Virus record (IMG/VR): IMGVR_UViG_3300009474_000022
Span: 1 to 20,288 of that record
Source of the DNA: a virus
Direction: 5' to 3' (one strand)
DNA length: 20,288 bases
The notes under the pieces are model-generated. The model was given only the letters and a program-made list of their open reading frames with translations, was not told where the DNA came from and did not search any database. Made by a program: the position numbers and the translations under genes. Below are positions 128 to 19,992 of the stretch, in pieces; the stretch's first letter is position 1; every line of letters starts with the position of its first letter.

Positions 128-564
128 TAGAAAAAATTAATCATAATCATTTATTATTAAACCCAAAGCATATCTATGTTAGACACATTATTGACCAAAA
201 GGTATATGATGTACTATATGAAAATTGGAATAATTTAAAACATTTTAGATGGAAAAACTTTATTGAAAATTATAACTTAAATTTAAAATTTTATAACGAT
301 TTACATGAAATCAATGACGATCATCAACAAAGGTACAAGGGTTTTTGGTTTTTTAAAGATCGTATTGACAAACGTAAAACAAAAATTATCATTAGCGATA
401 AGAAAGAATATCAATATTGGCCTAATGTTCTATTAATTGTCGAAAATAACACCAAGGTTCAATTTACTAGTGATAAAATAGATACAAATATGTTTAAGCC
501 TTGCATAACTATTAAATTTACAGACAGCCAATTGAAACTGTTAGATAATTTTTTTAGAATATAA
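124..564 (+). CDS. Hypothetical protein, 146 aa
   Basis: I do not recognise this protein. It is lysine/asparagine rich, with aromatic clusters (KGFWFFKDRID near residues 72-82, YQYWPNVLLIVEN near 96-108), and has no signal peptide or membrane segment. Its ATG overlaps the stop of the upstream glycosyltransferase fragment by 4 nt (ATGA), so it belongs to that operon and may share a glycan-related role; this is inference from position only. Its last 24 nt overlap the tail of the convergent FkbM methyltransferase gene. Composition is very AT-rich, like the rest of the plus-strand glycan genes. Confidence 0.7.
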   Translation: MIEKINHNHLLLNPKHIYVRHIIDQKVYDVLYENWNNLKHFRWKNFIENYNLNLKFYNDLHEINDDHQQRYKGFWFFKDRIDKRKTKIIISDKKEYQYWPNVLLIVENNTKVQFTSDKIDTNMFKPCITIKFTDSQLKLLDNFFRI

Positions 565-2586: not shown

Positions 2587-2607
2587 GACTATATTTTATA
2601 GTATAAT
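2579..2607 (+). promoter_or_regulatory. Sigma70-like promoter for the plus-strand glycan operon
   Basis: TTGAAC (2579-2584), a 17-bp spacer and a perfect TATAAT (2602-2607) lie just before the ATG at 2621. A start of transcription about 7 nt past the -10 box would leave a leader of only some 7 nt, and no Shine-Dalgarno sequence is seen. The -35 box overlaps the first codons of the divergent SGNH gene. On the opposite strand TTGTAA and TATAAA occur with a 15-bp spacer, a weaker candidate for the minus-strand operon. Confidence 0.5.
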
Positions 2608-2620
2608 TAACTGAATTACA

Positions 2621-4512: not shown

Positions 4513-5485
4513 AATATTTAGAAGAACAGTAAAAGATAGAAAAAGGGGAGCCAGTTGGAAATTATTAGAAGACATGGGGAGAGGTATACGTGCTTGTGGA
4601 GACAACCCCATTTTTATAAACAAAGATAAAGAAGGTCCTACGGAACAAGGAGAAATGACTCCAACAACTCCTATTTCCTGTATGTTTGGGTATGGTGGAA
4701 CAAATCAAAGGCATCACACGAAAGGTAGGAGATTAGAACTTGTTGAAAATGCCAAGTCCAGGGGTTCTTACGTTATAACTTTCGATGGGGGGGTTCTTTC
4801 AAGTTTTGGAAATACAATAACCCACCCCCAGCATCACTGGAGGGTAAGTCTTTATTCACCCATGAACAATGGAGATTTTTTATCAGATAACTCCCCACCA
4901 GATCGTTGGAATATGATGTGTAAACTTTGGAATATAAAGTATCAACCATGGAGAAAGTCAAATAAAGAAGATCCAATTGTTTTTGTGCTTCAACCAGCAG
5001 ACAACTGGTCTATGAACGAATTAGATCCCATTGAATGGTTTAAATCGGTATATGATAAAATTAGACCATTGACGGACCGACCCTTTATTGCGAGACCTCA
5101 TCCAAATCACATGGCACAAATGGAAAAAAGAAAATCGGAATTTCCTTCGGACGTTAATTTAGTTATAGGTCCCACTATATTCTCCGGAGACAACAAGAAA
5201 TTTTATAGATTTAATTTTCAAGACATGATCAGTAATGCCCACGCTGTAATTACACATAATTCGACTGCAAGTGTAGATAGTTGTATAAGAGGTATTCCAA
5301 CTTTTTGTACATCGGATCTTGCACTTTGTTGGCCCGTAGCAAATAATGATTTAACTAAAATTGAATCACCCGAGATTCCAGACAGAACTCAATGGGTTTA
5401 CGACTTAGGTTACAAAATGTGGAGTACGGAAGAAATTAAAAATGGGACTGTGTTTAAAAGATTTAAAAAAAAATTAGGATTGTAA
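4502..5485 (+). CDS. GT-B-like glycan biosynthesis protein (paralogue C)
   Basis: A 327-aa, longer and more diverged member of the same family. Recognisable parts are FIARPHPNHM (195-204), corresponding to the RDKP segment of A and B, then AVITHNSTASVDS (248-260), GIPTFC (264-269), WPVANNDLTKIESP (277-290) and the closing MWSTEEIKNGT (306-316). The combination of an R-P-H-P motif with 'THNSTAS' is close to the classical signature of KpsC/KpsS and CDP-glycerol-type GT-B transferases, which strengthens the glycosyltransferase assignment for the whole family. The ATG at 4502 lies 11 nt inside the preceding gene, and the stop shares one base with the next start (TAATG). Confidence 0.68.
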   Translation: MDVEIFRRTVKDRKRGASWKLLEDMGRGIRACGDNPIFINKDKEGPTEQGEMTPTTPISCMFGYGGTNQRHHTKGRRLELVENAKSRGSYVITFDGGVLSSFGNTITHPQHHWRVSLYSPMNNGDFLSDNSPPDRWNMMCKLWNIKYQPWRKSNKEDPIVFVLQPADNWSMNELDPIEWFKSVYDKIRPLTDRPFIARPHPNHMAQMEKRKSEFPSDVNLVIGPTIFSGDNKKFYRFNFQDMISNAHAVITHNSTASVDSCIRGIPTFCTSDLALCWPVANNDLTKIESPEIPDRTQWVYDLGYKMWSTEEIKNGTVFKRFKKKLGL

Positions 5486-6282
5486 TGAAATATCAAAGGT
5501 TTAAAATAATTAAAGAAGAATTACAAAATTGTTCATCTTTAATATTAAGTTTTCCTAGAAGTGGCAGAACCTGGATGAGGTTTGTTTTAGGACATTATAT
5601 TGAACGATATTATAATGTTCCATTTACAAAATTTCTAGAAAGACCAAGAGGAAATGGTGCTCCACAAATTAGTATGAGACACGATTTCATGAGCACAACC
5701 GGTCATATTCCATGGAGTGACTATTTTGAAATACAAAAAAATAAAAAATTTATTTTTACTAATGAAATCAAAAATAAAAAAATTGTGTATCTTTTTAGAA
5801 ACCCTTTGGATGTATTGTTTTCCTATTGGCCTTATCTGCAGAGCATACCATACGATAATTTTAAATGTAAAAATTATGATAACATCGTTGAGTTTGCAAA
5901 GGACCCAGATTGGGGATTGCAAATAATTATAAATTTTATGAACGAAATGATATTACATTTTAATAATCATCGGTCGCCAAAATTAGCAATAACATACGAA
6001 GCAATGAAAAATGACGAAAACACTTGGAAAAAATTAATAGAGTTTACTTGTAAAAACTTTGATCAGAAAGCCTACGAGTATGCAAAAAGTTTAACTAGTT
6101 TTCAAAAAATGCAAAAGAAGAACGATTCTTCCAAACCAAAAAATCTTCATTTTTATCGTAAAGGTGGTAGTAATTATATTAGCGAACTGCCAACATATCA
6201 GCAGGAATTACTTAATAATTGGCCGGGACTAAAAGAGTTAACTGTAAAAATAAAAAACTTAAATATAGATATACAAAAATGA
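5485..6282 (+). CDS. Sulfotransferase (PAPS-dependent)
   Basis: A 265-aa protein with the two PAPS-binding signatures of the sulfotransferase superfamily. The 5'-phosphosulfate loop is LSFPRSGRTWMR (21-32) and the 3'-phosphate motif is VYLFRNPLDVLFSYW (101-115). A YRKGGSN segment (224-230) corresponds to the C-terminal RKG loop that contacts PAPS. H66 in 'SMRHDF' is a candidate catalytic base. It should transfer sulfate from PAPS to a hydroxyl, most likely on a sugar given its position inside a glycosyltransferase operon. Sulfotransferases are unusual but known in marine phages. It begins at a TAATG junction and ends overlapping the next ATG (ATGA). Confidence 0.85.
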   Translation: MKYQRFKIIKEELQNCSSLILSFPRSGRTWMRFVLGHYIERYYNVPFTKFLERPRGNGAPQISMRHDFMSTTGHIPWSDYFEIQKNKKFIFTNEIKNKKIVYLFRNPLDVLFSYWPYLQSIPYDNFKCKNYDNIVEFAKDPDWGLQIIINFMNEMILHFNNHRSPKLAITYEAMKNDENTWKKLIEFTCKNFDQKAYEYAKSLTSFQKMQKKNDSSKPKNLHFYRKGGSNYISELPTYQQELLNNWPGLKELTVKIKNLNIDIQK

Positions 6283-7193
6283 AAATCAAAATTGTAACAT
6301 CATATAAACCGGGTACCTGGAGCAAATATGCTGAAAAATGTGTACGTAGCGTGATAGAAAATTGGCCCGATGGTATAGCGGTCAATGTATATCACGAAGG
6401 TCCGCAGGAAGAAACTAAAAATTTTATGTCTCCTAGATTGAAATGGATTGATCTCCATGAGGTACAGCCAGAACTAGTTAAATTTAAACAACGTCATAAG
6501 AACGATCCTGTGGCCAACGGAGAATTACAACAAATCCCAAACGGTGTCAGACGGTTGCCAGAAGCAGGAGGCATGGACCGAGGCAAGGGGTCTTATTTGT
6601 GGGACTCTGTCAGATTTTCAAACAAAGTTTTTTGTGTCACACACGCCATTAAAGAATCTATCAAAAAAGAATACGATTACATAATATGGCTAGACGCCGA
6701 CACATACACATTTAGACCAATGCCAAGAAATTTTTTAGAATCTCTTTTACCAGATACTACTATGTTAACTTATCTGGGAAGAGAAAATCCTAATTTAAAA
6801 GATGGTGGAAAATATCCGGAATGTGGGTTTGTGGGGTATAATCTGCGACACTGGGACATACAAAATTTTGCACGTGATTGGGAGCAACTATACATCACCG
6901 ACAAGGTGTTTAATCTTTTAGAATGGCATGATTCATATGTTTTTTGGCATTTGTCAAAATGGTACAGGCGATACAAAAACATAAAAGTGAATGATATCGG
7001 TTACTGGAAAGGAGTCAAAGGTCATCATGTTTTTGTTAATTCAGAACTGGGATTGTATATTGATCATATGAAAGGTAAAAGAAAAAAAATAGGTAGTAGT
7101 GCTAAAAATGATTTTCGACCACAGCAATTAGATGCTACAAAAAATATATCACAACTAGATTATTGGTCTAAAGTGCCTCCGGAATTAAAATGA
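6279..7193 (+). CDS. GT-A-type glycosyltransferase with DAD motif
   Basis: A 304-aa protein. An in-frame ATG at 6219 would add 20 basic residues lying wholly inside the sulfotransferase gene. The ATG at 6279 fits better because it forms the ATGA overlap typical of this operon and starts directly with the first beta strand (MKIKIVTSY). The metal-binding motif is IIWLDADTYTF (135-145). ECGFVGYN (181-188) and EWHDSYVF (215-222) follow, matching acceptor-side elements of GT-A enzymes, and a C-terminal DHMKGKRK (262-269) ends the domain. The metal and nucleotide sugar are expected to be bound at the DAD. Specificity cannot be inferred. It is co-transcribed with sulfotransferase and GT-B-like genes. 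Confidence 0.78.
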   Translation: MKIKIVTSYKPGTWSKYAEKCVRSVIENWPDGIAVNVYHEGPQEETKNFMSPRLKWIDLHEVQPELVKFKQRHKNDPVANGELQQIPNGVRRLPEAGGMDRGKGSYLWDSVRFSNKVFCVTHAIKESIKKEYDYIIWLDADTYTFRPMPRNFLESLLPDTTMLTYLGRENPNLKDGGKYPECGFVGYNLRHWDIQNFARDWEQLYITDKVFNLLEWHDSYVFWHLSKWYRRYKNIKVNDIGYWKGVKGHHVFVNSELGLYIDHMKGKRKKIGSSAKNDFRPQQLDATKNISQLDYWSKVPPELK

Positions 7194-8065
7194 AAATAGC
7201 AGTATTTCCTGATTATGGTAGTTTAAATTCAGAACCAGTTTTCAAAGCATTCATAGAAAACTTGAGGTACAAAAACGAAAATTTCGTACTTAATAAATTT
7301 GATAATACGTGTGACGTGGCTGTAATTTGGTCTGTGTTGTGGCAAGGACGCATGGAACAAAATAAAAAAGTTTGGGATTTTTTTAAGGAAAATAATAAAC
7401 CTGTAGTAGTTCTCGAGGTGGGCGGTATTAAAAGAAATGTAACTTGGAAAATAGGAATAAATGGCATTAATAGAGATGCCGACTTTGCCAATCAAACAGT
7501 TAATGAAAAAAGATGGTCAAAATTTAACATAGAATTAAAACCATGGAAACAAACAGGAAATATAATTGTGATTTGCGGACAGCACGACAACAGTGAACAA
7601 TGGAACGGTCTTCCTAAAATGTCAAAATGGATTGAAAATCAAATTTTAGAGATAAGAAAATTCTCTGACAAACCAATATTAGTTCGTCCTCATCCTAGAA
7701 ATATTATTAATTTTAATGAAAAAAAATTTAGTGATGTAAGAGTTAAAATTCCACAGAGAGATTGGTCCACCTACGACGATACCGATTTTAAGAAAACTCT
7801 AACCTCAACCTGGGCTGTGGTAAATCATTCGTCAAATCCGGCAATGGAATCAATTTTTAATGGCATACCGGTTTTTGTCTCAGAATCAAGTCTTTGCTAC
7901 GATGTTGGAAATTCTTCTCTTACAGAAATTATAAAACCGAGAATGCCTAATAGACACTCGTGGGTGGAAAAGTTATCTTATACAGAATGGTCAATTAGCG
8001 AAATCAGAGAAGGGGAACCGTGGAAAAGAATTAGAGAAAGGTTGCTTGAAAAATATATAAAATAA
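7190..8065 (+). CDS. GT-B-like glycan biosynthesis protein (paralogue D)
   Basis: A 291-aa member of the four-copy family, closest in motif form to paralogue C. It shows ILVRPHPRN (163-171), AVVNHSSNPAMES (209-221), NGIPVFVS (224-231) and a tail YTEWSISEIREG (264-275) that matches MWSTEEIKNG in C and QFTPEEYDNG in A. The N-terminal half begins with MKIAVFPDYG and contains a VVVLEVGG strand-loop (72-79), compatible with a first Rossmann domain of a GT-B enzyme. It overlaps the GT-A gene by 4 nt (ATGA). The next gene begins on the base after its stop. The reaction is inferred from fold motifs only. Confidence 0.66.
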   Translation: MKIAVFPDYGSLNSEPVFKAFIENLRYKNENFVLNKFDNTCDVAVIWSVLWQGRMEQNKKVWDFFKENNKPVVVLEVGGIKRNVTWKIGINGINRDADFANQTVNEKRWSKFNIELKPWKQTGNIIVICGQHDNSEQWNGLPKMSKWIENQILEIRKFSDKPILVRPHPRNIINFNEKKFSDVRVKIPQRDWSTYDDTDFKKTLTSTWAVVNHSSNPAMESIFNGIPVFVSESSLCYDVGNSSLTEIIKPRMPNRHSWVEKLSYTEWSISEIREGEPWKRIRERLLEKYIK

Positions 8066-8827
8066 ATGTCAATAGTTATACACAATACTAAAAAACACAC
8101 TATAAAAAGAGTGGAACCCATAGAGTGGGAACCTTATACTGGCGAAACCATTATCTTAAAAACAATTATTCGAGGCGGTAAAAAAATTCAGGAGACTGCT
8201 TTTTACGAGGACAAGGTTAAAGCAATACCGCGAGGCAATGCTTACATTATTGGTAACGGTCCATCTAGGAAGGGATTTGATCTTTCTCTTTTGAAACCAA
8301 CCGGACAGATATATGGCTGTAATGCCTTATATAGAGATTTTATCCCGGATTATTTGTTTAGTGTAGATCGTTTTATTTCAGAACAAATTGTAAAAGATAA
8401 GGTTTATGAAAAATGTGTTTGTTATGCTCCGTCATTAGAAGTATCTCGTTCAAATCATGCATTAAATTTAATTCCTAAAAATCCCCATTGGATATCTGGA
8501 AACGCCGCATTATGGACTGCGTTAGTACACGGACATAAAAATTTATTTTTACTAGGCATGGATTTTCGAGAATACGGTAAAAACCAACTTAATAATATCT
8601 ATCAAGGTACAGAGTTCTATGGCGAAAGAACAGGGAGCGATGTTTTCGAAGGATGGTTAACACAATTTAGAACAATGATAAAACAACGTCCTTATTGTCA
8701 TTTTACAGTAGTTCACGACGATCCTCCCGAATACATGCGACACTTGCAATCGGGTGATGATTTAAAAAATACCTCTTTAATGAACTACGAAGAATTTAAA
8801 AAGAAAGTTTTAGGCCTAGACTCTTGA
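8066..8827 (+). CDS. GNGPS-motif protein, DUF115/GT42-like
   Basis: A 253-aa protein with AYIIGNGPSRKGFDL (59-73) followed by YGCNALYRDFIPDYLFSVD (83-101). Further on, SGNAALWTALVHGHKNLFLL (144-163) leads into GMDF. A G-N-G-P-S nucleotide loop followed by a 'G-x(2)-A-x(3)-A-x(3)-G...LLGMDF' element is seen in DUF115/MAF flagellin-glycosylation proteins and in GT42 sialyltransferases, so transfer of a CMP-linked nine-carbon sugar or a related activity is possible. This is family-level inference from motifs. It is the last gene of the glycan operon. Its final 32 nt overlap the tail of the convergent SprT-like gene. Confidence 0.62.
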   Translation: MSIVIHNTKKHTIKRVEPIEWEPYTGETIILKTIIRGGKKIQETAFYEDKVKAIPRGNAYIIGNGPSRKGFDLSLLKPTGQIYGCNALYRDFIPDYLFSVDRFISEQIVKDKVYEKCVCYAPSLEVSRSNHALNLIPKNPHWISGNAALWTALVHGHKNLFLLGMDFREYGKNQLNNIYQGTEFYGERTGSDVFEGWLTQFRTMIKQRPYCHFTVVHDDPPEYMRHLQSGDDLKNTSLMNYEEFKKKVLGLDS

Positions 8828-9281
8828 AACGATTGCGCCAGCGATAGAAGTTGGCATTGTGATTGGAGTAGATATCTCGATCAACGGTCATTTGATACAA
8901 GTGAACCATTTCGTGTGCCAGTGTTTCGATAAAATCTTTCCATGTTTCATATTTGGTTCGCAATTCGATCTTGAAAGTAACTGCTGGGTTTGGTAGTTGA
9001 TCCACAGGCAGTGCTCGTTCGTTAACTGATTTTACTTTCCTTGCGTCCCATAAACAGAAACACTGTCCCCAACAGTCTTTTAGCCTGCGAAGTTCTATTT
9101 CTGGCATTGTCAAACGACTGTCGAATATTCCTTTGTTCAGTATGTTGAACCAGCTCTGTGCCTGTGCCACTGTGGGTCTGAAATTTTTAACATCTGCACG
9201 TTTTACCAACGCCTGCTTGACCTGGAAGCGAACTTTCTTCACTGCTTTGACTGACATCTTTCTCTGTTTCTTGCTTTTCAT
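8796..9281 (-). CDS. SprT-like zinc metalloprotease
   Basis: A 161-aa protein with the zincin motif AHEMVHLYQ (122-130) and a downstream HNANFYRWRNRF (141-152), matching the HExxH plus third-ligand layout of the SprT/Spartan family. The DCWGQCFCLW segment (69-78) corresponds to the family's conserved 'lG.c' strand. Cellular SPRTN relatives cleave proteins crosslinked to DNA; in phages the role is unproven, but SprT-like genes are common in T4-like marine phages. The N terminus is very basic. An internal ATG at codon 9 is an alternative start, since neither has a good Shine-Dalgarno. The gene is about 43% GC, richer than its neighbours. Confidence 0.82.
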   Translation of the reverse strand: MKSKKQRKMSVKAVKKVRFQVKQALVKRADVKNFRPTVAQAQSWFNILNKGIFDSRLTMPEIELRRLKDCWGQCFCLWDARKVKSVNERALPVDQLPNPAVTFKIELRTKYETWKDFIETLAHEMVHLYQMTVDRDIYSNHNANFYRWRNRFKSLGLKLSF

Positions 9282-9349: not shown

Positions 9350-10687
9350 ATGGTTAAAACTACACATAATTCAATCACCACGATAGAGCAGGCCGTACAG
9401 ATTCTAGCCTATAACGAGCACTTTTGGGAGGATTTCAAGGTGCATCCAATGGACCGCAAAACAGTGACCAGCCTAGCTGATGCTCCATATGCCTGGACCG
9501 AGAAACAAGGTAAATTGGCTGTGTCACTACTCAAAAGATATCACACATTATTTCAAAAATATAATATTGACCTTACAAAATTATTGAATAATCCTGTATT
9601 TAACAGACCGTTTAGAGTTATCGATTATGAAAAATCTATAGAAAAATATGAAGATGACGATGGAGAATGGATAGAATTTAAATTTCCATATAATGAAAAA
9701 TTAATTAGACTTGTGAGGAATCTTAAAAACAAAAAAACTCAAACATTAGTTCCGATGATCTATGACGGTGAACAAAAAAAATGGAAAATTTCTTGCACCG
9801 AGATCACTGTATATTTTTGTGTTTTAATTGCTATTCGTTATGATTTTAAGTTTATAACTCCGGAATTATTAGATTTGTATGAAGAAATTAAAAAAGAAAA
9901 AATTTCTTATCGCCCTCCTATAATTGTTTTAAAAGAAAATAAATTACGCATCGAAAATGCAACAGAAAGTTTAACAGACTGGTGGCATAATAATTATGCC
10001 GATAAATCTTTTTTACATCAATGCGATATTCTAAAAAATTTAGAGATAGATAATATGGTCAATTTTACTATAACCAAAACAAGTACTCTTGCTGATAGAA
10101 TAGCCATAAACAAAAATAAGGAAATCTATGTGGATAGAGATAGTTGGTCTAAAAAAGATTTTTTAAATGCTTTGTTAAAACTCGATAGTTTACCAGCATT
10201 GGTGACCACAGGGTCTGAATTTACTTCATTTAAAGACATAGACGAATTATATGATTGGTATCAGGCGTTTGAATCTGTGGGAATAAAACCTTGCGAAGTT
10301 GCTTGGGGATATACCATGGAAGACGCTCCAAATTGGAAAAGAGAAAAAAATAAGGATAATGTGTTTTATTCGGATCCTTATCCGTTGGAAATGCCCGAGC
10401 ATGAACGAGAAAAACTCTACGACCGATGGTGCGATTTACAAGTTAATTCAAAATCATCTAAATATATAGACGAGCATACTAAAATTATTTTTGTAAGAAC
10501 TAAAATACCAAGAACATTAATTAAAGCAAAAATTCCTATTAAAAGTTCTTTTACCATGTTTGATTCAAGTTATTGGCCAAGCGGAACAGAAACTTTAGGA
10601 AGAGTACTTGAAAATCTTCCAAAAAGAGTTTATTATGTTAGTAAATCAAAAGCATGGTTAGGTGACAATAAAAATGAGTTCCTGTAA
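9350..10687 (+). CDS. Unknown protein with HARP-like segment, partner of UvsW
   Basis: A 445-aa protein that I cannot name. An N-terminal helical segment (TSLADA...WTEKQGKLAVSL, about 40-60) resembles the short 'SL...LTEKQ...L' module found before helicase domains in phage proteins. Residues 108-180 (IEFKFPYNEKLIRLVRNL, then an IYDGEQKKWKIS turn and helices) look like a HARP-type domain, the DNA-annealing module of SMARCAL1-like proteins. The remaining 250 residues lack Walker motifs. It begins the uvsW operon and overlaps uvsW by 14 nt. GC falls sharply inside the gene, from about 45% (9361-9540) to about 24% (9541-9660). A role in DNA branch migration or annealing is inference. Confidence 0.7.
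   Translation: MVKTTHNSITTIEQAVQILAYNEHFWEDFKVHPMDRKTVTSLADAPYAWTEKQGKLAVSLLKRYHTLFQKYNIDLTKLLNNPVFNRPFRVIDYEKSIEKYEDDDGEWIEFKFPYNEKLIRLVRNLKNKKTQTLVPMIYDGEQKKWKISCTEITVYFCVLIAIRYDFKFITPELLDLYEEIKKEKISYRPPIIVLKENKLRIENATESLTDWWHNNYADKSFLHQCDILKNLEIDNMVNFTITKTSTLADRIAINKNKEIYVDRDSWSKKDFLNALLKLDSLPALVTTGSEFTSFKDIDELYDWYQAFESVGIKPCEVAWGYTMEDAPNWKREKNKDNVFYSDPYPLEMPEHEREKLYDRWCDLQVNSKSSKYIDEHTKIIFVRTKIPRTLIKAKIPIKSSFTMFDSSYWPSGTETLGRVLENLPKRVYYVSKSKAWLGDNKNEFL
10660..10665 (+). promoter_or_regulatory. Ribosome binding site that fixes the uvsW start
   Basis: AGGTGA lies 8 nt before the ATG at 10674. A GTG in the same frame at 10662 falls inside this Shine-Dalgarno sequence, so the ATG is the more credible start. 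Confidence 0.6.
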
Positions 10688-12140
10688 ACTAGTTATAAAA
10701 GATGAAGTAAATGTAAAGTTTGAAGATTTGTCTTTGGATCATCGCAAAAGATTACATACTAAATTTAAATTTGAGATTCCTTATGCAAGACATTTGCCCG
10801 CAGTAAAGTTAGGACGCTGGGATGGCAAAATTAGTTTTTTTGGATTGGGAGGTACTACATACCTAGCATTAGTGGATCAAGTACTTCCTATATTAGAAGA
10901 TGCAGGAGTGTATGTAGAACTTGTAGATGAAAGAACTAAGCACGACTTTGAATTTAAATTGATAGATAAAAATTATCTTAGTGATATTACCTGGCCAAGC
11001 ACACACCCTTGCTCTGGTCAACCTATAGAACTTAGAGATTATCAAGTCGAGATCATAAACAAATTTATTGAAAATCCTCAATGTATACAAGAGATTGCGA
11101 CGGGAGCAGGCAAAACAATTATTACTGCGGCTCTTTGTAAATTAGTTGAAAATTATGGGAGAACACTGACCATAGTTCCAAATAAAAGTCTAGTAACACA
11201 AACCGAAGACGACTTTATCGCTTGTAATCTCGATGTAGGAGTTTACTATGGTGATAGAAAAGAATTAGGTAGACAAAATACTATTGCAACTTGGCAATCA
11301 TTAAACGTATTAGAAAAAAGAAGTAAAGACGATCACACAACTGAATTTTTAGAAGCCATACAAGATATTAATACAATTATTGTAGACGAGGTTCACATGG
11401 CTAAAGCAGATGTTCTCAAAAAAATGTTAACAGGGCCATTTGCTCATTGCGGAATACGTTGGGGTTTGACCGGTACGGTACCTAAAGCAGATTTTGAATT
11501 CTACGGCTTAAGATGTTCTATAGGTGAAGTTGTAAACAAAATTCCTGCCAAACAATTACAAGACAAGGGTGTCTTGGCACAATGCAATGTAAATGTCTTG
11601 CAAACACAGGACCACCCCGAGTTTAAAAACTATCAAGAAGAATTAAAATGGCTGACAACAGATTCTGTAAGGATGGGATGGATCGCCGATACAATAGAAC
11701 ATATTGCTTCTTCGGGTAATACATTAATATTAGTCGACAGGATTTCAGCAGGAGAAATGTTAGAACAAAAAATAAAAAATTCGGTATTTATATCAGGGTC
11801 AACCAAAAATTTAGATAGAAAGGAGCACTATGATGAAGTATCTACTGCAAAAAATAAAGTTATCATTGCCACATATGGAGTTGCCAGTGTTGGCATTAAT
11901 ATTCCTAGGATTTTTAATCTTGTTCTCATAGAACCAGGAAAATCCTTTGTGAGGGTTATACAATCTATAGGGCGAGGAATTCGTAAAGCAGAAGACAAGG
12001 ACAATGTTCAGATATGGGATATTACCAGTTCCTGTAAATTTGCAAAAAGACATCTAGGACAAAGAAAAAAGTTTTACAAAGAGGCTAATTATCCGTATAA
12101 TATAGAAAAAATAGATTATGAAAATCCTTACACTCGATAA
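10674..12140 (+). CDS. uvsW: UvsW-type superfamily 2 DNA helicase
   Basis: A 488-aa helicase, close in size to T4 UvsW. The N-terminal domain carries the conserved GRWDGKISFF patch (47-56). Helicase motifs follow in order: RDYQ Q-motif (121-124), Walker A ATGAGKT (142-148), DEVH box (238-241), LTGT (265-268), and motif VI in QSIGRGIRK (430-438), preceded by ATYGVASVGIN (399-409). UvsW unwinds branched DNA such as R-loops and stalled forks, and in T4 switches replication from origin-dependent to recombination-dependent mode. The ATG at 10674 is chosen for its AGGTGA site. It follows the HARP-like gene with a 14-nt overlap and overlaps the next gene by 23 nt. Confidence 0.95.
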   Translation: MSSCKLVIKDEVNVKFEDLSLDHRKRLHTKFKFEIPYARHLPAVKLGRWDGKISFFGLGGTTYLALVDQVLPILEDAGVYVELVDERTKHDFEFKLIDKNYLSDITWPSTHPCSGQPIELRDYQVEIINKFIENPQCIQEIATGAGKTIITAALCKLVENYGRTLTIVPNKSLVTQTEDDFIACNLDVGVYYGDRKELGRQNTIATWQSLNVLEKRSKDDHTTEFLEAIQDINTIIVDEVHMAKADVLKKMLTGPFAHCGIRWGLTGTVPKADFEFYGLRCSIGEVVNKIPAKQLQDKGVLAQCNVNVLQTQDHPEFKNYQEELKWLTTDSVRMGWIADTIEHIASSGNTLILVDRISAGEMLEQKIKNSVFISGSTKNLDRKEHYDEVSTAKNKVIIATYGVASVGINIPRIFNLVLIEPGKSFVRVIQSIGRGIRKAEDKDNVQIWDITSSCKFAKRHLGQRKKFYKEANYPYNIEKIDYENPYTR

Positions 12141-12621
12141 CGAAACATATACATTAGAAAAAATACCCGAATACGTAGATGATAATTTACGTTTTGCGGT
12201 CTTGGATAACTCCAACCCAATAGATCCAGACTACTATTTTGTTCCGTTAATATTTTTAGAAAGTTTTTCTGCACCTGCGGCAGTATTGCAAATTGGGGAT
12301 AAAAAAATAAAAATGCCATTGGATTGGAAAATGATTATTGGAGATCCCGAAGAGGGAGAATTATATGTGATACCTATCACTAGTTTGAACGATCGAGGAT
12401 TTGAAACTTTCTTGTTTAATCCCATTACTGGTTCAAAGCCAGAATTTAAAGTTGTAGATATCGTAGATATCTATCAAGAAATAAAATGGTATTTTCCTAA
12501 ACTTAAATCAGGACAAATACTTGCAATACCACTGGAAGAAGGCAAAAATCCTCAGTGTGCTTATTTTGTTAAGGATATTTCAAGACAATCAGAAATATTA
12601 GATTATAGTTTGGTATGGTAG
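12118..12621 (+). CDS. Hypothetical protein, 167 aa
   Basis: I do not recognise this protein. It is acidic and beta-rich, with short strands alternating with turns (YYFVPLIFLE, GELYVIPITSL, GQILAIPLEEG) and no cysteine pair, membrane span or nucleotide motif. The start lies 23 nt inside uvsW and the end overlaps the following gene by 7 nt, so it is translated as part of the replication/recombination operon. Its position between a helicase and a putative clamp-loader subunit suggests a DNA-metabolism or transcription accessory role, but nothing in the sequence shows it. It carries a GATATC repeat pair near 12456-12472 with no evident function. Confidence 0.7.
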   Translation: MKILTLDNETYTLEKIPEYVDDNLRFAVLDNSNPIDPDYYFVPLIFLESFSAPAAVLQIGDKKIKMPLDWKMIIGDPEEGELYVIPITSLNDRGFETFLFNPITGSKPEFKVVDIVDIYQEIKWYFPKLKSGQILAIPLEEGKNPQCAYFVKDISRQSEILDYSLVW

Positions 12622-13070
12622 AAAAAAAAGATAATAGAAAATTTTTTGAACTGCGTAATGGAATGAAAGCCATCGATTTCCGTAACAAGGATTATTACGA
12701 TAGAATTGATGATAAGGAAAGAAGTCTTTATTCTCCTTACATGATAATGAGGTATGCAAGTTCTGTTTCCGGCGATCGTTTCTATCAGGAACACTATGTA
12801 GAAATGATTAACGAGTGTGTGAACAAACACTTGTTTACACTTTCCAGCAAACATAAAAAACTATGTTGGATGCTAACTTCTATGTGTGGCTCTCTTAAAC
12901 AACAGTTTCATCCATGGGTAAAACCAATGAAAAAAATTCCAAACAAAAGCCTACAATTATTGCAAGAACTGTTTCCAACAAAAAAAGAACAAGATCTTGA
13001 AATATTGGATAAAATTATTACAGATAAAGAATTAGAAGAACTGTTAGAGGCACATGGAAAACAATCTTAA
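12615..13070 (+). CDS. Possible clamp-loader small subunit (gp62-like)
   Basis: A 151-aa, helix-rich protein. The segment LYSPYMIMRYASS (38-50), followed by a helix ending in YVEMINECVN (61-70) and later FHPWVKPMKK (98-107), resembles the layout of T4-type clamp-loader subunit A, where 'Y-x-P-F-x-x-N-R-x-x-S' precedes an aromatic/basic stretch. In T4, gp62 joins four gp44 ATPases to load the gp45 sliding clamp. The assignment rests on motif resemblance and context only; gp44 and gp45 are not in this window. It overlaps its neighbours by 7 and 17 nt. Otherwise it should be treated as a hypothetical operon member. Confidence 0.4.
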   Translation: MVEKKDNRKFFELRNGMKAIDFRNKDYYDRIDDKERSLYSPYMIMRYASSVSGDRFYQEHYVEMINECVNKHLFTLSSKHKKLCWMLTSMCGSLKQQFHPWVKPMKKIPNKSLQLLQELFPTKKEQDLEILDKIITDKELEELLEAHGKQS

Positions 13071-13740
13071 TACCTGCACATATTGTAATAAAAGTTTTCA
13101 AAAAGAAAGAACTTTACAAGTTCACGTATGCGAACCAAAAAGAAGACACTTACAAAAAAATGAAAAATGGGTAAAAAACGGGTTTTTAGTTTTTCAAAGA
13201 TGGTACGAGATACATCAAAAAAACGGAAAACAAAAAACATATGACGAGTTTTGTGATAGTTCATATTACAATGCTTTTGTAAAGTTTGGAAGATATATGA
13301 TGTATATCAATCCTTTATATCCAGAAAAATATATTGATTATGTAATATTATCAAAGATAAAATTAGATCATTGGGCAAGGGACGATCTATACGAGACGTA
13401 TCTCATTGACACATTAAAAACCGAACCAGTAGAATCTGCATTACGTAGATCTATACAGACCATGATGGATTGGGCACAAGAACAAAATGTACAATGGGCA
13501 GATTATTTTAGATTGGTCAATACTCCTAGAGCAGTTCAACATATTCAATCTGGAAAAATATCACCATGGCTGGTATTGGGTTGTAAAGCAGGTAAAACTA
13601 TGTTAACGTCATTTACCGACGAACAATTACAAATGGTTCAAGGATTTATTGATCCTAATTTTTGGAACAATAAATTTAAAAATTATCCGGCAGATGTTTT
13701 GTTTGTACAGGAAACAGCAAAGGAGGCCAAAATTGTATAA
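13054..13740 (+). CDS. C2H2-type zinc-finger protein, 228 aa
   Basis: The N terminus holds a single finger: C8-x2-C11, a 12-residue loop with F15 and L21, then H24 followed by C26 and H32. Spacing to the final ligand is longer than in the classical C2H2, so either C26 or H32 closes the site. A basic KRRH stretch follows. The remaining 190 residues are helical and tryptophan-rich, with no enzymatic motif that I recognise. A nucleic-acid-binding role is likely from the finger; the target is unknown. It overlaps the preceding gene by 17 nt, and its 3' end contains the strong AGGAGG that serves the next gene. Confidence 0.65.
   Translation: MENNLNTCTYCNKSFQKERTLQVHVCEPKRRHLQKNEKWVKNGFLVFQRWYEIHQKNGKQKTYDEFCDSSYYNAFVKFGRYMMYINPLYPEKYIDYVILSKIKLDHWARDDLYETYLIDTLKTEPVESALRRSIQTMMDWAQEQNVQWADYFRLVNTPRAVQHIQSGKISPWLVLGCKAGKTMLTSFTDEQLQMVQGFIDPNFWNNKFKNYPADVLFVQETAKEAKIV
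13721..13726 (+). promoter_or_regulatory. Strong Shine-Dalgarno that defines a TTG start
   Basis: AGGAGG lies inside the end of the zinc-finger gene, 6 nt before the TTG at 13733. It is the best ribosome binding site in the window and marks the start of a 73-aa gene whose upstream in-frame ATG (13649) would force a much longer overlap. Confidence 0.65.
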
Positions 13741-13954
13741 AGAAAAATTTGATGACAGTTTAGAAATACAACCAGGAGATAGTGTTTTGGTCATAGGAAA
13801 AAACGGTAAACTTAAAAAATTAATCATGCCCGAAATAAAAAAAAATATACCACATACTGCGGGAACCGAAAAAGTTTTAGAAATATTAAAAATATTTGAT
13901 CCCGATGCCGAATTAGAAACTTTTGAAAATGTTGATAAAAAAATTATAAATTAA
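13733..13954 (+). CDS. Small hypothetical protein, 73 aa, TTG start
   Basis: The protein begins M-Y-K-E-K-F and contains a PGDSVLVIGKNGKLKK beta-hairpin (residues 14-29), then a helix around TEKVLEILKIFD and an acidic tail. I do not recognise a family. The TTG at 13733 is chosen over an in-frame ATG at 13649 because AGGAGG sits 6 nt upstream and the overlap with the zinc-finger gene is then only 8 nt. The 28 extra residues of the longer form (rich in I, F, Q, R) look like read-through of the neighbour's other frame. It ends at a TAATG junction with the DnaE-like gene, suggesting coupled synthesis of the two. Confidence 0.65.
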   Translation: MYKEKFDDSLEIQPGDSVLVIGKNGKLKKLIMPEIKKNIPHTAGTEKVLEILKIFDPDAELETFENVDKKIIN

Positions 13955-14520
13955 TGCCTGATATAGATATAGATTTTTACGATCGAGAACAAGCACTTAA
14001 ACTTTTTAAGAACATACCTGCATCAATTATTAAGGACAACGAAAGCGAAAAACACAATACCGGTGTTTATTTTCATGATATTCCAACAGATCCTATCACA
14101 GGTTATTCTAGCCTAGACTATAAACAGGCAGAGGAGCGAGGATATTTTAAAATTGATTGTTTGAATGTTAATATCTATAAAGACATAAAATCAGAAATAG
14201 AACTTGTTGAACTCATGATACAAGAGCCAGACTGGGACATGCTAAAAGACAAGTCGATTGTAGACCAACTATTTCATCTTAATGGTCACTACGATATTGT
14301 TTCAAAATTAGAACCAAAAACTATACAACAACTTGCGGCAGTGTTAGCAATTATACGACCGGCCAAAAGAAATCTTTTATATAAAGATTGGATTGATATA
14401 GAAAAAAAAGTATGGGAACGTCCCAAGGACGATTCTTATTTTTTTAAGAAATCTCATGCCGTGGCCTATGCCCAAGCGATAGTGGTACAAATGAATATCA
14501 TGACAAGACAGAAAAAATGA
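13954..14520 (+). CDS. Miniature DnaE (Pol III alpha)-like palm/fingers protein
   Basis: A 188-aa protein that matches the motifs of bacterial C-family polymerases in order. MPDIDIDF (1-8) equals the catalytic PDFDxDF with D5 and D7. KHNTGVYF (33-40) equals KHAGGVVI. GYFKIDCLNV (63-72) equals the 'VKFDFLGL' motif with the third catalytic aspartate, D68, and lysine K66. LFHLNGHYDIVSKLEPKTIQ (106-125) and IIRP (133-136) equal 'VFQLES..M..L..L.P' and 'LFRPGP'. KKSHAVAYA (165-173) equals 'NKSHSAAYA'. PHP, beta-binding and OB domains are absent and the thumb is cut to about 25 residues. A 188-aa stand-alone polymerase is unlikely; regulation, decoy or a split complex are alternatives. The match is by motif recall, not a search. 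Confidence 0.7.
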   Translation: MPDIDIDFYDREQALKLFKNIPASIIKDNESEKHNTGVYFHDIPTDPITGYSSLDYKQAEERGYFKIDCLNVNIYKDIKSEIELVELMIQEPDWDMLKDKSIVDQLFHLNGHYDIVSKLEPKTIQQLAAVLAIIRPAKRNLLYKDWIDIEKKVWERPKDDSYFFKKSHAVAYAQAIVVQMNIMTRQKK

Positions 14521-14801
14521 TAAATAGTTTTTTAGTGTACACGTCAGAAAACAACAATGCTAAAAAACCACTTCATAAAACAGTAGATCTTTCCACTTCC
14601 ACAAACACCTATCTAGACGTTGAGATGATCAAGATATTTGAACAGAGTATAGAAGAAGATTGTCCTTATTTGATACAGTTAGATAACAGTGATTGGTCTG
14701 AATGGGTCAAAAGAAGAAGGCAGTATTGGGAAGAAGAAAAAAGAGTCAGTGTCACTTACCACAATCTAAGTCGCAGTATATACGTCGTGCCTATGCGGTA
14801 G
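14517..14801 (+). CDS. Hypothetical protein, 94 aa
   Basis: I do not recognise this small protein. It has an acidic middle (MIKIFEQSIEEDCPYLIQLD) and a basic, tryptophan-containing segment (DWSEWVKRRRQYWEEEKR, about 60-77), followed by a short beta-strand end (SRSIYVVPMR). The ATG overlaps the stop of the DnaE-like gene by 4 nt (ATGA), so it is the last member of the uvsW operon. Its 3' end overlaps a convergent minus-strand gene by 11 nt. Nothing in the sequence indicates a specific function. Confidence 0.6.
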   Translation: MINSFLVYTSENNNAKKPLHKTVDLSTSTNTYLDVEMIKIFEQSIEEDCPYLIQLDNSDWSEWVKRRRQYWEEEKRVSVTYHNLSRSIYVVPMR

Positions 14802-15168
14802 GTCTTCGCATCAGTTGAATTGTTCTTCTCTTGATTCTTTTTTTCGCTATTTCATCTAGGCGGACTACTGGTCCATGAACTATTTTTACATCTTTACTAG
14901 CAAGTGTGACTAATGTAGATTTAAAATAAGAAAAATCATTTTTTAAGAATATGTTGATTGGAATTTTTCTATTAGATTCCCACCACCATGTTTCTCCAAG
15001 TTTTAAAAAAGTTATTTTATCAGCAGGTTGCATGATTCTTCCATAATCATAAAAACTAATCACCTGGTTATCCTGATTCTGTACAATACCCACGTATTCG
15101 AGGTCTCCTTTACGTATGAGAGATAAAAATGGGAATTTTTTTCCTAATGTTTCAAAAATTTCATTCAT
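14791..15168 (-). CDS. Conserved-looking hypothetical protein, 125 aa
   Basis: The protein begins MNEIFETLGKKFPFLSLIRK, followed by GDLEYVGIVQNQDNQVISFY and later GETWWWESNRKIPINIFL (about 57-74), with a very basic C terminus (AKKRIKRRTIQLMRRP). I recall similar short proteins with the 'YVGIVQNQDN' and 'TWWWESNR' segments in T4-like marine phages, without assigned function. The tryptophan triplet and strand-rich layout suggest a small globular protein, and the basic tail may bind nucleic acid; that is inference. It faces left from a 32-bp gap shared with the structural gene and overlaps the convergent gene by 11 nt. Confidence 0.7.
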   Translation of the reverse strand: MNEIFETLGKKFPFLSLIRKGDLEYVGIVQNQDNQVISFYDYGRIMQPADKITFLKLGETWWWESNRKIPINIFLKNDFSYFKSTLVTLASKDVKIVHGPVVRLDEIAKKRIKRRTIQLMRRPTA

Positions 15169-15200: not shown

Positions 15201-15986
15201 ATGCAAACAGTATCAAGGTATTTACTCACAAATTTGGTAATCGCCTATATAAATGGTTATACAGGAAGGAATTCTAAAGTGTACGATAGACAATTAAAAG
15301 TATATAAGGGTGTTTCTAATCCTATCACATTTGCGTTTAAAAATGAGGATCAAAAAGCCCAGGATATAACCTCAAAAACATTTGAATTTAACATAATTGA
15401 CATAGAATCAATGAAGTCTGTATTAACTAGAAATTTAACTATTTTAGATGACGGATCAACAACAAATACCAAAGGAACTGCTATTGTAACCATATCAGAA
15501 GGAGACTTACTGTTACTTGATTCAAAATTTTACAATTATAGCGTAAGAGAAATTAATGCCGACAACAGTCAAACTGTAACGTATAGCGATACATCTTACA
15601 ATTCGCAAGGAACGTTAGAGTTAATCGACGATGCATATCCACAGTTTCAGGCTAGTCAAAATATTAACTCATTTACAGTAACTACAGGGCCATTAACAAA
15701 AACATCCGGAGCCATCGATGCATATCCCGGAAATAATAATAATTCTGCCCTACACACTGCGGTAATCTACACAACTGGGTTTACTGGTAGAGTAAAGATA
15801 CAAGGTACGATGGTAACAACGTCACCGGTAGACGCTGATTACTTTGACATAACAAATATTGACATAACTGCATCTGATACTGTAACATACACAAACTTCA
15901 ATGGGGTTTATCAAAATATCAGATTCAGTTACGGTAATACAAGTGGTAATACTGGCACAGTTGACAAAATCCTATATAGACATTAA
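15201..15986 (+). CDS. Probable virion structural protein (baseplate or fibre-associated)
   Basis: A 261-aa, serine/threonine/asparagine-rich, beta-strand-rich protein lacking cysteine. The N-terminal part (about 30-130: VYKGVSNPITFAFKN, TFEFNIIDIES, then SEGDLLLLDSKFYNYSVREI) resembles the first beta-sandwich domain of upper baseplate/fibre proteins. The C terminus, YTNFNGVYQNIRFSYGNTSG followed by NTGTVDKILYRH, is of a type I associate with marine T4-like structural proteins. Two DAYP segments (about 142 and 173) mark a short internal repeat. It stands behind a late-type promoter motif and between two replication blocks. The assignment to tail rather than head is uncertain. Confidence 0.6.
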   Translation: MQTVSRYLLTNLVIAYINGYTGRNSKVYDRQLKVYKGVSNPITFAFKNEDQKAQDITSKTFEFNIIDIESMKSVLTRNLTILDDGSTTNTKGTAIVTISEGDLLLLDSKFYNYSVREINADNSQTVTYSDTSYNSQGTLELIDDAYPQFQASQNINSFTVTTGPLTKTSGAIDAYPGNNNNSALHTAVIYTTGFTGRVKIQGTMVTTSPVDADYFDITNIDITASDTVTYTNFNGVYQNIRFSYGNTSGNTGTVDKILYRH

Positions 15987-15995
15987 AATACATTA

Positions 15996-17012
15996 ATGAA
16001 TCTAATCCAGAGTACAATTCTGAATTCGTTGCCTGCTGGCAAGAAAAAAACTCCCAGCGGATGGACTAGTTTCAATGCTCCTTGTTGTGTATACAATGGA
16101 GAATCACAAGACAAGAAAAAAAGAGGAGGTATAATGACCACCGCCGACGGTACATTAAGTTATCATTGTTTTAACTGCGGTTATAAAGCAAATTATACTA
16201 TTGGTAGAAAATTAAATTTTAAGATGAGACAGTTCATGGGATGGATTGGTATCTCCGAAGAAACTATACGTAAACTTTCCTTAGAGGCGATGCGTTACGA
16301 GGAGGCTGGTAATACTCACGAGAAAAAAAGATTTGTTGAGTTTAAAGAAAAACCTCTGCCGAAGAATTCTCATAGATTAGATTACTGGTTGGAAAAATAT
16401 CTTAAAAAAGATCTAACAGATACACAATATAATAAAATAGATCAATTATTAAATTATCTCAAATCTAGAGGAGTTGAGCCACACTGGTACAATTTTTATT
16501 ACTCACCAGACCAAACATCAAATTTTGATAGAAGAATTATTATTCCTTTTTATTGGAGAGGAAATCTTGTAGGATATACAGGAAGATTATTTGATACACG
16601 TAATAAAGAAATAAAATATTGGACAGAAACACAACCCGGCTATGTGTTTAACATGGATGTTCAGGATTGGTCTCGTAAATTTGTTCTGGTAACAGAAGGA
16701 CCATTTGATGCACTTACCATTTCTGGTGTAAGCATATTGGGCTCAGAGATAAATGATATACAAAGAGAACTCATTGATGGACTTGGTAGAAAGGTGATTG
16801 TTGTACCAGATAGAGATACACCCGGAGAAAAATTGATAGACCAAGCAATAGAATTTGGATGGAGTGTGGCATTTCCAGAATGGCAAAAAGGTGTTGATGA
16901 TGTGGCGGATGCTGTGTTAAAATATGGAAGATTGTTTGTGATGCAAAGCATATTAAAAACGACCGAATCAAGTAAACTAAAGATCGATTTAAAGAGAAAA
17001 ATTTATGGCTGA
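15996..17012 (+). CDS. gp61: DNA primase, gp61-type
   Basis: A 338-aa primase with an N-terminal zinc-binding region (FNAPCCVYN with C30/C31, then YHCFNCGYK with C58/C61) and a C-terminal TOPRIM domain. In TOPRIM, the glutamate motif is VTEGPFDAL (232-240, E234), the DxD motif is VVPDRDTPG (269-277), and KGVDDVADAV (298-307) is the conserved end. Size equals T4 gp61 (about 340 aa). It makes RNA primers for lagging-strand synthesis in complex with gp41. The end overlaps the gp41 gene by 8 nt, the arrangement expected for stoichiometric partners. It starts 9 nt after the structural gene, with no clear promoter of its own. Confidence 0.93.
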   Translation: MNLIQSTILNSLPAGKKKTPSGWTSFNAPCCVYNGESQDKKKRGGIMTTADGTLSYHCFNCGYKANYTIGRKLNFKMRQFMGWIGISEETIRKLSLEAMRYEEAGNTHEKKRFVEFKEKPLPKNSHRLDYWLEKYLKKDLTDTQYNKIDQLLNYLKSRGVEPHWYNFYYSPDQTSNFDRRIIIPFYWRGNLVGYTGRLFDTRNKEIKYWTETQPGYVFNMDVQDWSRKFVLVTEGPFDALTISGVSILGSEINDIQRELIDGLGRKVIVVPDRDTPGEKLIDQAIEFGWSVAFPEWQKGVDDVADAVLKYGRLFVMQSILKTTESSKLKIDLKRKIYG

Positions 17013-18444
17013 TTATAGTTTTGACGTACAAAAGTTGTATCTAGAAATGTTTCTGGCAGATGCAGAATCTTTCGCCCGAGCACAAAACATTTTTGAACCT
17101 ACAAGTTTTGATAGAAAACTACAACCGATCGCTAAGTTTGTAAAAGAGTATTCTGAAGAGTATAAGGTTATGCCGGATGTTGACCAGGTCAACGCCAAAC
17201 ACGACATCAAATTAAAATCGGCAAAGGATCTAGATCCATCACACTTTAGTTGGCTGTTAGATGAATTTGAAACATTCTCAAGACACAAGGCCATGGAGAA
17301 AGCGATACTCGAATCTGCTGATTTGTTAGAGAAAGGTGATTATAACCCTGTTGAGGACAAAATCAAGGCCGCAGTTGGTATAAGTTTAACTAAAGATTTA
17401 GGAACAGACTATTTCGAAGATCCCAGAGGTAGATTGGAGGCATTAAAAAACTCTAATGGTCAAGTCAGCACAGGATGGACCAACGTTGATAAGAAACTTT
17501 ACGGTGGATTCAATCGTGGTGAACTAAACATATTTGCTGGTGGATCAGGAGCAGGAAAGAGTTTATTCCTACAGAATCTAGCAGTCAACTGGGCAACCGC
17601 TGGGTTGAACTGTGTATATATCTCATTCGAATTAAGCGAGGCATTGTGTGCAATGCGTTTAGATTCCATGATGGCAAATATATCAACAAGACAAGTTATG
17701 AAAGATATTGACACGGTTGAAATGAAAATCAAAATGTTAGCAAAGAAAGCCGGAGGCATTCAAATTAAATATCTTCCTTCCGGTAGCAATGTTAACGACA
17801 TAAAAGCATATGTCAAAGAATTACAATTGAAACAAAAGAAAAAAATCGACTGTATCTTGATAGATTATCTGGACCTTATGATGCCGAAAAGCAAACGTGT
17901 AAGTCCAGCAGATTTATTCATTAAGGACAAATATGTTTCAGAAGAATTAAGAAACTTTGCCACTGAGTCACAAATGATAATGGCAACAGCGTCACAATTA
18001 AACAGGGCAAGTGTAGAGGAGATAGAATTTGATCACTCTCATATAGCAGGTGGACTATCAAAGGTGCAGACAGCAGACAATGTAATTGGTATCTTTACAA
18101 GCAGGGCCATGAAAGAGCGTGGAAGATACCAAATACAATTTATGAAAACTAGAAGTAGTTCGGGGGTTGGTCAGAAAGTGGATCTAGAGTTTGATGTGGA
18201 CACATTAAGAATTAGATCACTCGATGAGGAAGAAAGCCATTATCAATCAAAACCACAATCTTCAATAATGGATAGTCTCAAAACCAAAAGTAAAGTATCG
18301 TCGTCGGATAATAAAACAGATGCTAGAAATGAAAAAGAAATTAATCCTCGCAAAGGCGAAGATTTTGGCAAAGTTAAAGCCACAGTAGAGGGAGGAAAAT
18401 TGAGACAACTTCTGAACGAACTACACTCAGATGAAGAACAATAA
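17005..18444 (+). CDS. gp41: Replicative DNA helicase, gp41/DnaB-type
   Basis: A 479-aa protein, very near T4 gp41 (475 aa). An N-terminal helical domain (1-130) precedes a RecA-like core starting at STGWTNVDKKLYGG (155-168). The core has Walker A AGGSGAGKSLF (178-188), FELSE (208-212), Walker B CILIDYLDLM (283-292) and the sensor/finger ATASQLNR (327-334). The hexamer unwinds DNA 5'-3' at the fork and carries gp61. The C-terminal 70 residues (from about 410) are charged, serine/lysine rich and probably disordered, a likely contact for partner proteins. It overlaps the primase gene by 8 nt, and the largest non-coding gap follows. Confidence 0.95.
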   Translation: MADYSFDVQKLYLEMFLADAESFARAQNIFEPTSFDRKLQPIAKFVKEYSEEYKVMPDVDQVNAKHDIKLKSAKDLDPSHFSWLLDEFETFSRHKAMEKAILESADLLEKGDYNPVEDKIKAAVGISLTKDLGTDYFEDPRGRLEALKNSNGQVSTGWTNVDKKLYGGFNRGELNIFAGGSGAGKSLFLQNLAVNWATAGLNCVYISFELSEALCAMRLDSMMANISTRQVMKDIDTVEMKIKMLAKKAGGIQIKYLPSGSNVNDIKAYVKELQLKQKKKIDCILIDYLDLMMPKSKRVSPADLFIKDKYVSEELRNFATESQMIMATASQLNRASVEEIEFDHSHIAGGLSKVQTADNVIGIFTSRAMKERGRYQIQFMKTRSSSGVGQKVDLEFDVDTLRIRSLDEEESHYQSKPQSSIMDSLKTKSKVSSSDNKTDARNEKEINPRKGEDFGKVKATVEGGKLRQLLNELHSDEEQ

Positions 18445-18619: not shown

Positions 18620-18625
18620 CAAAAT

Positions 18626-19174
18626 ATGAAAACAATTAAATCATTTAAAAGAATAGTAACCGGAATCAACGAACAGGGCAAATCAACAGTGATGTCGAAT
18701 GACATTGCTGGGGGTGTTCTAGATTTTGGCGATGCCCGACCGTTCCACACACACACATACTTGTGGAAAACACGAGACGAAGAACAAGACTTTACAGGGT
18801 TCGACGATCCCATAGATTCCAATTTCAAAACATTTCCCACACCGGGAGGAACAACTTTTCTTGTTGTACAGTTCGATCCCCAAGACGACGAAGTGCTTAA
18901 AAAAATTGATCCAAAAAAAGGATTCGAAGCCATGGGTGCTGTTGATAATCTCAAGGTCAGCAGTCGACATCCTTATATGCACGCCACTCCCACTGTGGAT
19001 TACGGTGTCGTACTGTCGGGCAAAATCAAACTGTTGCTGGACGAAGGTCAGGAAGAAGTGGAACTGAATCAGGGAGATGTGTTGGTGCAGAGGGGAGCAT
19101 TGCACGCCTGGTACAATCCGTTTTCTGAACCTTGTGTTATTGCTTTTACTTTAGTAGACGCTAGGAAAAATTAA
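18626..19174 (+). CDS. Cupin-domain protein
   Basis: A 182-aa protein whose C-terminal half is a single cupin barrel. It shows HATPTVDYGVVLSGKIKLLL with metal-ligand candidates, then EVELNQGDVLVQRGALHAWY (G-D and H-x-W motif 2), and ends FTLVDARKN. An upstream frame extension to 18569 would add 19 hydrophobic residues across the promoter, so the ATG at 18626 is preferred. Cupins of this small type often bind iron or another divalent metal and act as dioxygenases, isomerases or sugar/acid-binding regulators; the substrate is unknown. Its GC content is well above the phage average. It meets a TauD-like gene tail to tail with a 4-nt overlap. Confidence 0.8.
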   Translation: MKTIKSFKRIVTGINEQGKSTVMSNDIAGGVLDFGDARPFHTHTYLWKTRDEEQDFTGFDDPIDSNFKTFPTPGGTTFLVVQFDPQDDEVLKKIDPKKGFEAMGAVDNLKVSSRHPYMHATPTVDYGVVLSGKIKLLLDEGQEEVELNQGDVLVQRGALHAWYNPFSEPCVIAFTLVDARKN

Positions 19175-19992
19175 GCATCTCCGTGTCGACAATTCATACG
19201 CCATAATTCACGAGAATATTGTTCTTCGGTGCTGTCGATTGTTCCCTTGGCCGAGTGTAGCATGGAAATGTTATCCCATATTAAAAAATCTCGCTCTTCC
19301 CAATGATGCTCATAGATGTACTCATCCTTGATTGCGTGATCTCTTAGTTCCTCTAACAGTTTGTCTGATTCCTCTTTGCTCAATCCAAGCACCTGTTGTA
19401 TGTGTCCGTACACCGAATAGATACAGTTCTCTCCGGAGATCCAGTGCGGCATTATCAAAGGATGGTATACATATCCGTCCACTCCCAAGCCCTTGAGTTC
19501 TTCTTCCGTGGGCACCGCCGCTAGTGCATAATCGGTGGCGTGCTTGTGTGCGGCCACCTTGCCCGTGGCTTTCTTTTTTAGATTGTCCGGTAGATTCTTA
19601 TACGCCATGGACTGATCTGCGAATATTGTGGTCCCCCCCACTTTTGCAACGGTTATGGAATATAGAAAACTAAACGTCGGAGGACATTGTAAAAAAGATT
19701 GATCGATGTGCCAAATTTCAGGACTGAGTTGCCCTTTGGTTTTGTCGTTGTGTAACACATAGATCTCTGGATGTGTCTTGAGAGCATTCTGTTTCCATTT
19801 AGCGTGACGTACGGGTGTACCAAACTTGTTCAGTATCTCTACGAGGTCATCTGGGCTGGCCTGGAAATTTTTAAAAATCAATATCTTGTGTTTCTCCATT
19901 AGAGATATTATGTGATCAATACCTTCCACTATATCTGTTTTTGTGACGTCAAATATCTTCACACCGTATGGCAAAATGGCTTCTGTTTTCAT
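19171..19992 (-). CDS. TauD/TfdA-family Fe(II)/2-oxoglutarate dioxygenase
   Basis: A 273-aa enzyme with all expected residues. The iron motif HxD is in EIWHIDQSF (H95, D97), the distal histidine is in SMLHSAKG (H246), and the 2-oxoglutarate-binding arginine lies 15 residues further on (R261 in SRELWRM). GGTTIFADQSMAY (119-131) and DFLIWDN (235-241) are typical of the family. The reaction is oxidative hydroxylation of a small molecule with decarboxylation of 2-oxoglutarate, as for taurine or 2,4-D in named relatives; the substrate here is unknown. AAAGGA precedes the ATG by 6 nt. GC reaches about 60% locally (19501-19560), far above the replication genes, which suggests recent bacterial origin. 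Confidence 0.9.
   Translation of the reverse strand: MKTEAILPYGVKIFDVTKTDIVEGIDHIISLMEKHKILIFKNFQASPDDLVEILNKFGTPVRHAKWKQNALKTHPEIYVLHNDKTKGQLSPEIWHIDQSFLQCPPTFSFLYSITVAKVGGTTIFADQSMAYKNLPDNLKKKATGKVAAHKHATDYALAAVPTEEELKGLGVDGYVYHPLIMPHWISGENCIYSVYGHIQQVLGLSKEESDKLLEELRDHAIKDEYIYEHHWEERDFLIWDNISMLHSAKGTIDSTEEQYSRELWRMNCRHGDA

Follow-up and report, generated by a model that had tools for sequence, protein, structure and literature searches.

A marine jumbo-phage gene for the C-terminal half of a predicted split, minimal C-family DNA polymerase

The DNA analysed here is a stretch of 20,288 nucleotides, positions 1-20,288 of IMG/VR virus record IMGVR_UViG_3300009474_000022, which we call the window. 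It carries a replication and recombination cluster (Table 1), and within it an ORF of 188 codons whose product begins with MPDIDIDF. We refer to this product as the C-piece. The cluster runs from a UvsW-type helicase through the C2H2-like gene to the C-piece, an opposite-strand phrog_11637 gene, a structural gene, primase and helicase, and this order is shared with eight of nine reference jumbo phages, the C-piece cluster being rearranged in XacN1. In several reference phages UvsX, UvsY and a DnaQ-like exonuclease are encoded directly upstream. The 73-aa ORF ahead of the C-piece matches no known family and has no clear part; its stop overlaps the C-piece ATG (TAATG), so translation of the two is probably coupled. 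Elsewhere in the window, a run of glycan-type genes (500-8830) includes an FkbM-like methyltransferase, a DUF6716-like putative glycosyltransferase, a sulfotransferase (PF00685) and several mutually similar proteins of 265-330 aa, and an SprT-like gene lies at 8796-9281 (-). A search of the window for structured RNA and tRNA found none.

Table 1. Genes of the replication/recombination cluster around the C-piece
Feature	Coordinates	Strand	Basis or remark
UvsW-type DNA helicase, upstream end of cluster	10662..12140	+	homology, synteny
Conserved hypothetical neighbour, phrog_11279	12118..12621	+	homology, synteny
Conserved hypothetical neighbour, phrog_11758	12615..13070	+	homology, synteny
C2H2-like zinc-finger protein, phrog_11058	13054..13740	+	upstream neighbour kept in 8/9 reference phages
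Small 73-aa ORF, TTG start	13733..13954	+	stop overlaps C-piece ATG
C-piece, C-terminal half of split minimal Pol III alpha	13954..14520	+	188 aa; family, motifs, predicted fold, invariant residues
Small ORF directly 3' of C-piece	14517-14801		in only 3/80 marine relatives; probably a recent insertion
Conserved 125-aa protein, phrog_11637	14791..15168	-	downstream of C-piece in 9/9 reference phages
Virion-structural-protein homologue, phrog_14467	15201..15986	+	conserved neighbour
DnaG-type primase (T4 gp61-like)	15996..17012	+	homology, synteny
DnaB-type replicative helicase (T4 gp41-like)	17005..18444	+	homology, synteny

The original prediction held that Pol III alpha motifs occur in the correct order within the 188 residues, and they do: PDIDIDF (2-8), HNTGV (34-38), FKID (65-68), IIRPAK (133-138) and KKSHAVAYA (165-173). 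A chance match was rejected on the basis of 170 aligned relatives, membership of phrog_11778 and the predicted fold. When aligned to E. coli alpha, numbered on the stretch FERFLN393-PERVSM-P400-D401-F-D403-V-D405, the metal ligands are D3 (D401), D5 (D403) and D68 (D555), residues that are absolute throughout C-family polymerases (PMC3919608). D7 corresponds to the non-catalytic D405. The prediction was therefore right that all three catalytic aspartates are present, but its numbering (D5/D7/D68) was shifted by one repeat. The C-piece starts at about E. coli residue 399-400. As had been proposed, the PHP, thumb, beta-binding and OB parts are missing, since 188 aa leave no room for them, and so is the first palm half. 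The frame opens at a true start codon: in 155 of 169 relatives, an ATG two or five codons ahead of the first D is the closest start. The DxD and HxGG motifs lie only ~31 residues apart, compared with 87 in a contiguous phage DnaE, so the thumb has been lost. RP and KSH are separated by ~33 residues rather than ~92, and the fingers are shortened.

The C-piece belongs to phrog_11778, annotated "DNA polymerase" (hmmscan, E 1.8e-66, residues 3-185). It also matches the DnaE-like phrog_405 (E 1e-6), and its sole Pfam match, to the Pol III finger domain, fell under the cut-off (E 0.025). A PDB profile search returned collinear pieces of M. tuberculosis DnaE1 (412-424, 617-673 and 773-788) at a weak E of 0.057. 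When the two halves of the enzyme were compared with contiguous phage DnaE by hhalign, the C half reached 1.1% probability, in the correct register, and the N half described below reached 94.7%. The similarity between the C-piece and DnaE is thus weak at the level of sequence.

Relatives of the C-piece are numerous in phages. Cultured jumbo phages account for 90 records, with 36-57% identity among the matches listed, and include Sinorhizobium phage Phosso, Agrobacterium Atu_ph07, the Pseudomonas PA5oct group, Xanthomonas XacN1, Salicola SCTP-2, Vibrio 2.275.O and RaK2/121Q/Kaldavass types. IMG/VR holds more than 550 related stretches, the best 82% identical. In the genome collection we found only 10 loci, all on MAG contigs; these are most likely binned phage DNA, and a cellular origin of the separate C-piece was rejected. 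The MAG-binned members (L216-L225) were assigned to Pelagibacter, Verrucomicrobia, Natrialbaceae and others, probably through contamination. Across 170 C-piece sequences, D3, D5, D7, R11, H34, G37, K66, D68, N71, R135, P136, K138, H168 and Y172 are invariant, and 16 of the 18 motif positions inspected are strictly so. The median dN/dS is 0.069 (132 pairs, dS 0.1-1).

We modelled the C-piece with AlphaFold2 using 109 window/locus sequences (pLDDT 92.4, pTM 0.80). In a Foldseek search of the PDB, ranks 1-12 were all Pol III alpha (T. aquaticus, M. tuberculosis, E. coli), the first seven with a probability of 1.00; matches after rank 12 were mostly noise. The best E value was 1.5e-3 and TM scores were 0.39-0.55, modest values that are expected because the C-piece is a fragment with deletions. 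Against a viral structure library, phage DNA polymerases came first. Neither outcome that would have refuted the original prediction was seen, as Pol III alpha ranked first in the fold search, and the model predicts a Pol III alpha core fold for the C-piece.

All nine reference jumbo phages encode one ORF of ~175 aa that matches PF07733. By profile, this protein, the N-piece (family phrog_11127), matches residues 317-393 of E. coli alpha; it forms the beginning of the palm and carries the GRGS nucleotide-phosphate-binding motif. Its model (pLDDT 90.9) has only Pol III alpha and PolC as top structural matches. The N-piece carries a stretch like GVGRGSSVASYVLFLIGIHRVNSITYELDFDEFLN and ends there, at the residue that matches N393 of E. 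coli. This end lies 33-39 residues past the start of GRGS in 80 of 80 IMG/VR copies, and exactly 33 residues past it in 75; among the same 80 copies we found no fused N+C gene (Rosetta stone). The GS motif is not in the C-piece chain, which holds only the second palm half. Because the N-piece ends at ~393 and the C-piece starts at 399-400, the break parts the GS motif from the DxD metal ligands, and the alignment places the split inside the presumed nucleotidyltransferase active site. The C-piece had been described as a stand-alone DnaE palm/fingers protein in a T4-like phage. DnaE homology in a T4-like jumbo phage stands, but "stand-alone" does not, because a second phage gene encodes the palm's nucleotide-binding half.

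The two genes are far apart in most reference phages (97.5 kb and 321 kb in Phosso). In all five divergent phages inspected (L306-L310), the N-piece is followed by a gene of ~110-155 aa that could encode a further subunit, by a gene for a GroES-like co-chaperonin or a comparable small gene, and by the clamp loader (a gp44 homologue) or, at the same position, an AAA-ATPase. Every one of the nine reference phages has both halves, as do nine of the ten viral contigs that reach 200 kb or more. In one 359-kb contig the N-piece is present and the C-piece was not detected. The N-piece is absent from the 20-kb window, which is all that is known of this phage genome, and we infer that the phage carries it elsewhere in its genome. 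The two pieces diverge together (Mantel r 0.904, 24 pairs, 0 of 2000 shuffles as high), although an r of 0.90 may partly mirror shared phage history, because it was measured on this gene pair alone.

These phages also encode other polymerases. A B-family polymerase is present in all nine reference phages and in every one of the eight large viral contigs checked, all of which carry both halves; none lies in the 20-kb window. A contiguous PHP-less DnaE (~560 aa, phrog_405 E ~1e-67) is additionally encoded 4.6-5.5 kb downstream, directly behind the DnaB helicase, in nine of the 36 close marine relatives whose sequence extends far enough. The contiguous DnaE loci are L047 (11274-12560), L064, L062, L003, L005, L037, L040, L010 and L080, with a further one at the start of contig G003. 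The window lacks this gene and has a cupin gene (18620-19171) and a TauD/TfdA dioxygenase gene (19171-19992, -) at that place; neither occurs in the loci of 80 nearby relatives. One contig of 150,743 bases (G032; L233/L314/L325) encodes three polymerases: a B-family enzyme, a contiguous C-family enzyme and the split C-family one, of which it has both halves.

These data suggest, with a probability of about 0.72, that the C-piece is the metal- and template-binding half of a split C-family polymerase, that it rebuilds an active site with the N-piece, and that the enzyme is accessory to the B-family replicase. The C-piece would supply the second part of the palm and the shortened fingers, and the N-piece would supply the start of the palm with its GRGS motif. 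When the two chains dock, GS/R from the N-piece and D3/D5/D68/K66 from the C-piece would form one nucleotidyltransferase active site. The complex would then be a thumb-less, PHP-less, two-subunit C-family polymerase working beside the phage B-family replicase, perhaps in repair, recombination-primed or strand-specific synthesis. Assembly into such a two-subunit enzyme is the most likely outcome for the two halves, and we infer polymerase activity and an accessory role from the same evidence. The absence of a thumb counts against a polymerase, as it leaves the grip on the primer-template unexplained.

Because no thumb is left, the main rival is that the assembled pair is non-processive, acting as a template-independent or short-patch nucleotidyltransferase in end-tailing, gap filling or modification. 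The loss of the clamp-binding and PHP parts together with the thumb, the short DxD-HxxG interval and the B-family polymerase already present in these phages all fit such an enzyme. However, the Pol III alpha finger motifs RP-x-K and KSH are invariant or nearly so, which suits templated synthesis, and the C-piece sits in a replication cluster. We regard this alternative as unlikely. It is far less probable that the C-piece is a mimic of Pol III alpha that titrates host tau, epsilon or template and so halts host replication. It does resemble part of a host replisome subunit, but the regions that bind epsilon (PHP) and beta/tau (C-terminal) are missing from it, and its family is an old and diverse one with ties to phage replication genes. 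Mimicry would need neither the invariant metal ligands nor GRGS, and the decoy, inhibitor and structural roles raised by the original prediction are disfavoured because every active-site residue is kept on both halves. Least credible, and strongly contradicted, is a decaying remnant or a structural protein of the virion that retains a fossil polymerase motif: the adjoining genes are annotated as virion proteins, but the low dN/dS (0.069) excludes the "remnant" of the original prediction, and the 16 strictly invariant motif positions and more than 550 relatives in viral contigs do not fit either version.

If the halves assemble into a two-subunit C-family polymerase, it would be among the smallest of its family, with an active site rebuilt in trans. 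We put at about even odds the fuller picture of a working polymerase whose active site comes from two proteins, split inside the nucleotidyltransferase signature and lacking thumb, PHP and clamp-binding parts, that serves as a second replicase across hundreds of jumbo phages, beside a B-family and, in some marine phages, a contiguous C-family polymerase. The minimal needs of a Pol III core would then become directly testable. Tests could also address what makes T4-like jumbo phages retain a second polymerase, and whether the two-gene arrangement came first, as Iyer et al. proposed, or arose later by reduction. Such work is practical because the split point is strict and there are cultured relatives on E. 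coli, Pseudomonas and Sinorhizobium.

The original prediction left open whether such a protein had been described, and it had. For group 2.2 jumbo phages, Iyer et al. 2021 reported, in silico, a minimal Pol III alpha that is specific to phages and split into distantly encoded NTP-binding and Mg/template-binding proteins, in addition to a B-family enzyme (PMC7824862). A small Pol III alpha gene that is apparently the N-piece is noted in the papers on Atu_ph07 and CBB, and a survey of marine jumbo phages found PF07733 in about half the members of one group (PMC9123017). Our literature search, later papers included, found no laboratory test of the split enzyme, and the text of Iyer et al. gives no residue-level split point, selection data or experiment (PMC7824862). 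Because that work described the split enzyme, what the window adds is a new marine member and not a new kind. New here are the exact, invariant split point, the synteny of the N- and C-pieces and the contiguous extra polymerase in some close relatives.

The C-piece corresponds to the separate C unit of the minimal split Pol III alpha (phrog_11127 N plus phrog_11778 C), starting at the DxD strand; in that system the N and C genes are separate and distant, and the phage encodes a B-family polymerase as well. Only the C unit lies in the window fragment, and the window protein comes from a marine lineage, with at most 57% identity to those of cultured phages among the matches listed. The contiguous phage DnaE (phrog_405, ~560 aa) is likewise a reduced C-family phage polymerase that lacks PHP, but it keeps both palm halves on one chain, and its DxD-HxGG segment and its fingers are longer. 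Bacterial Pol III alpha (DnaE1 of E. coli, T. aquaticus and M. tuberculosis) is the closest fold to the modelled C-piece. The two share D401/D403/D555, K553, HxGG, RP and KSH in order, whereas the bacterial enzyme, at ~1160 aa, also has the PHP, first palm half, thumb, HhH, beta-binding and OB parts that the 188-aa C-piece lacks.
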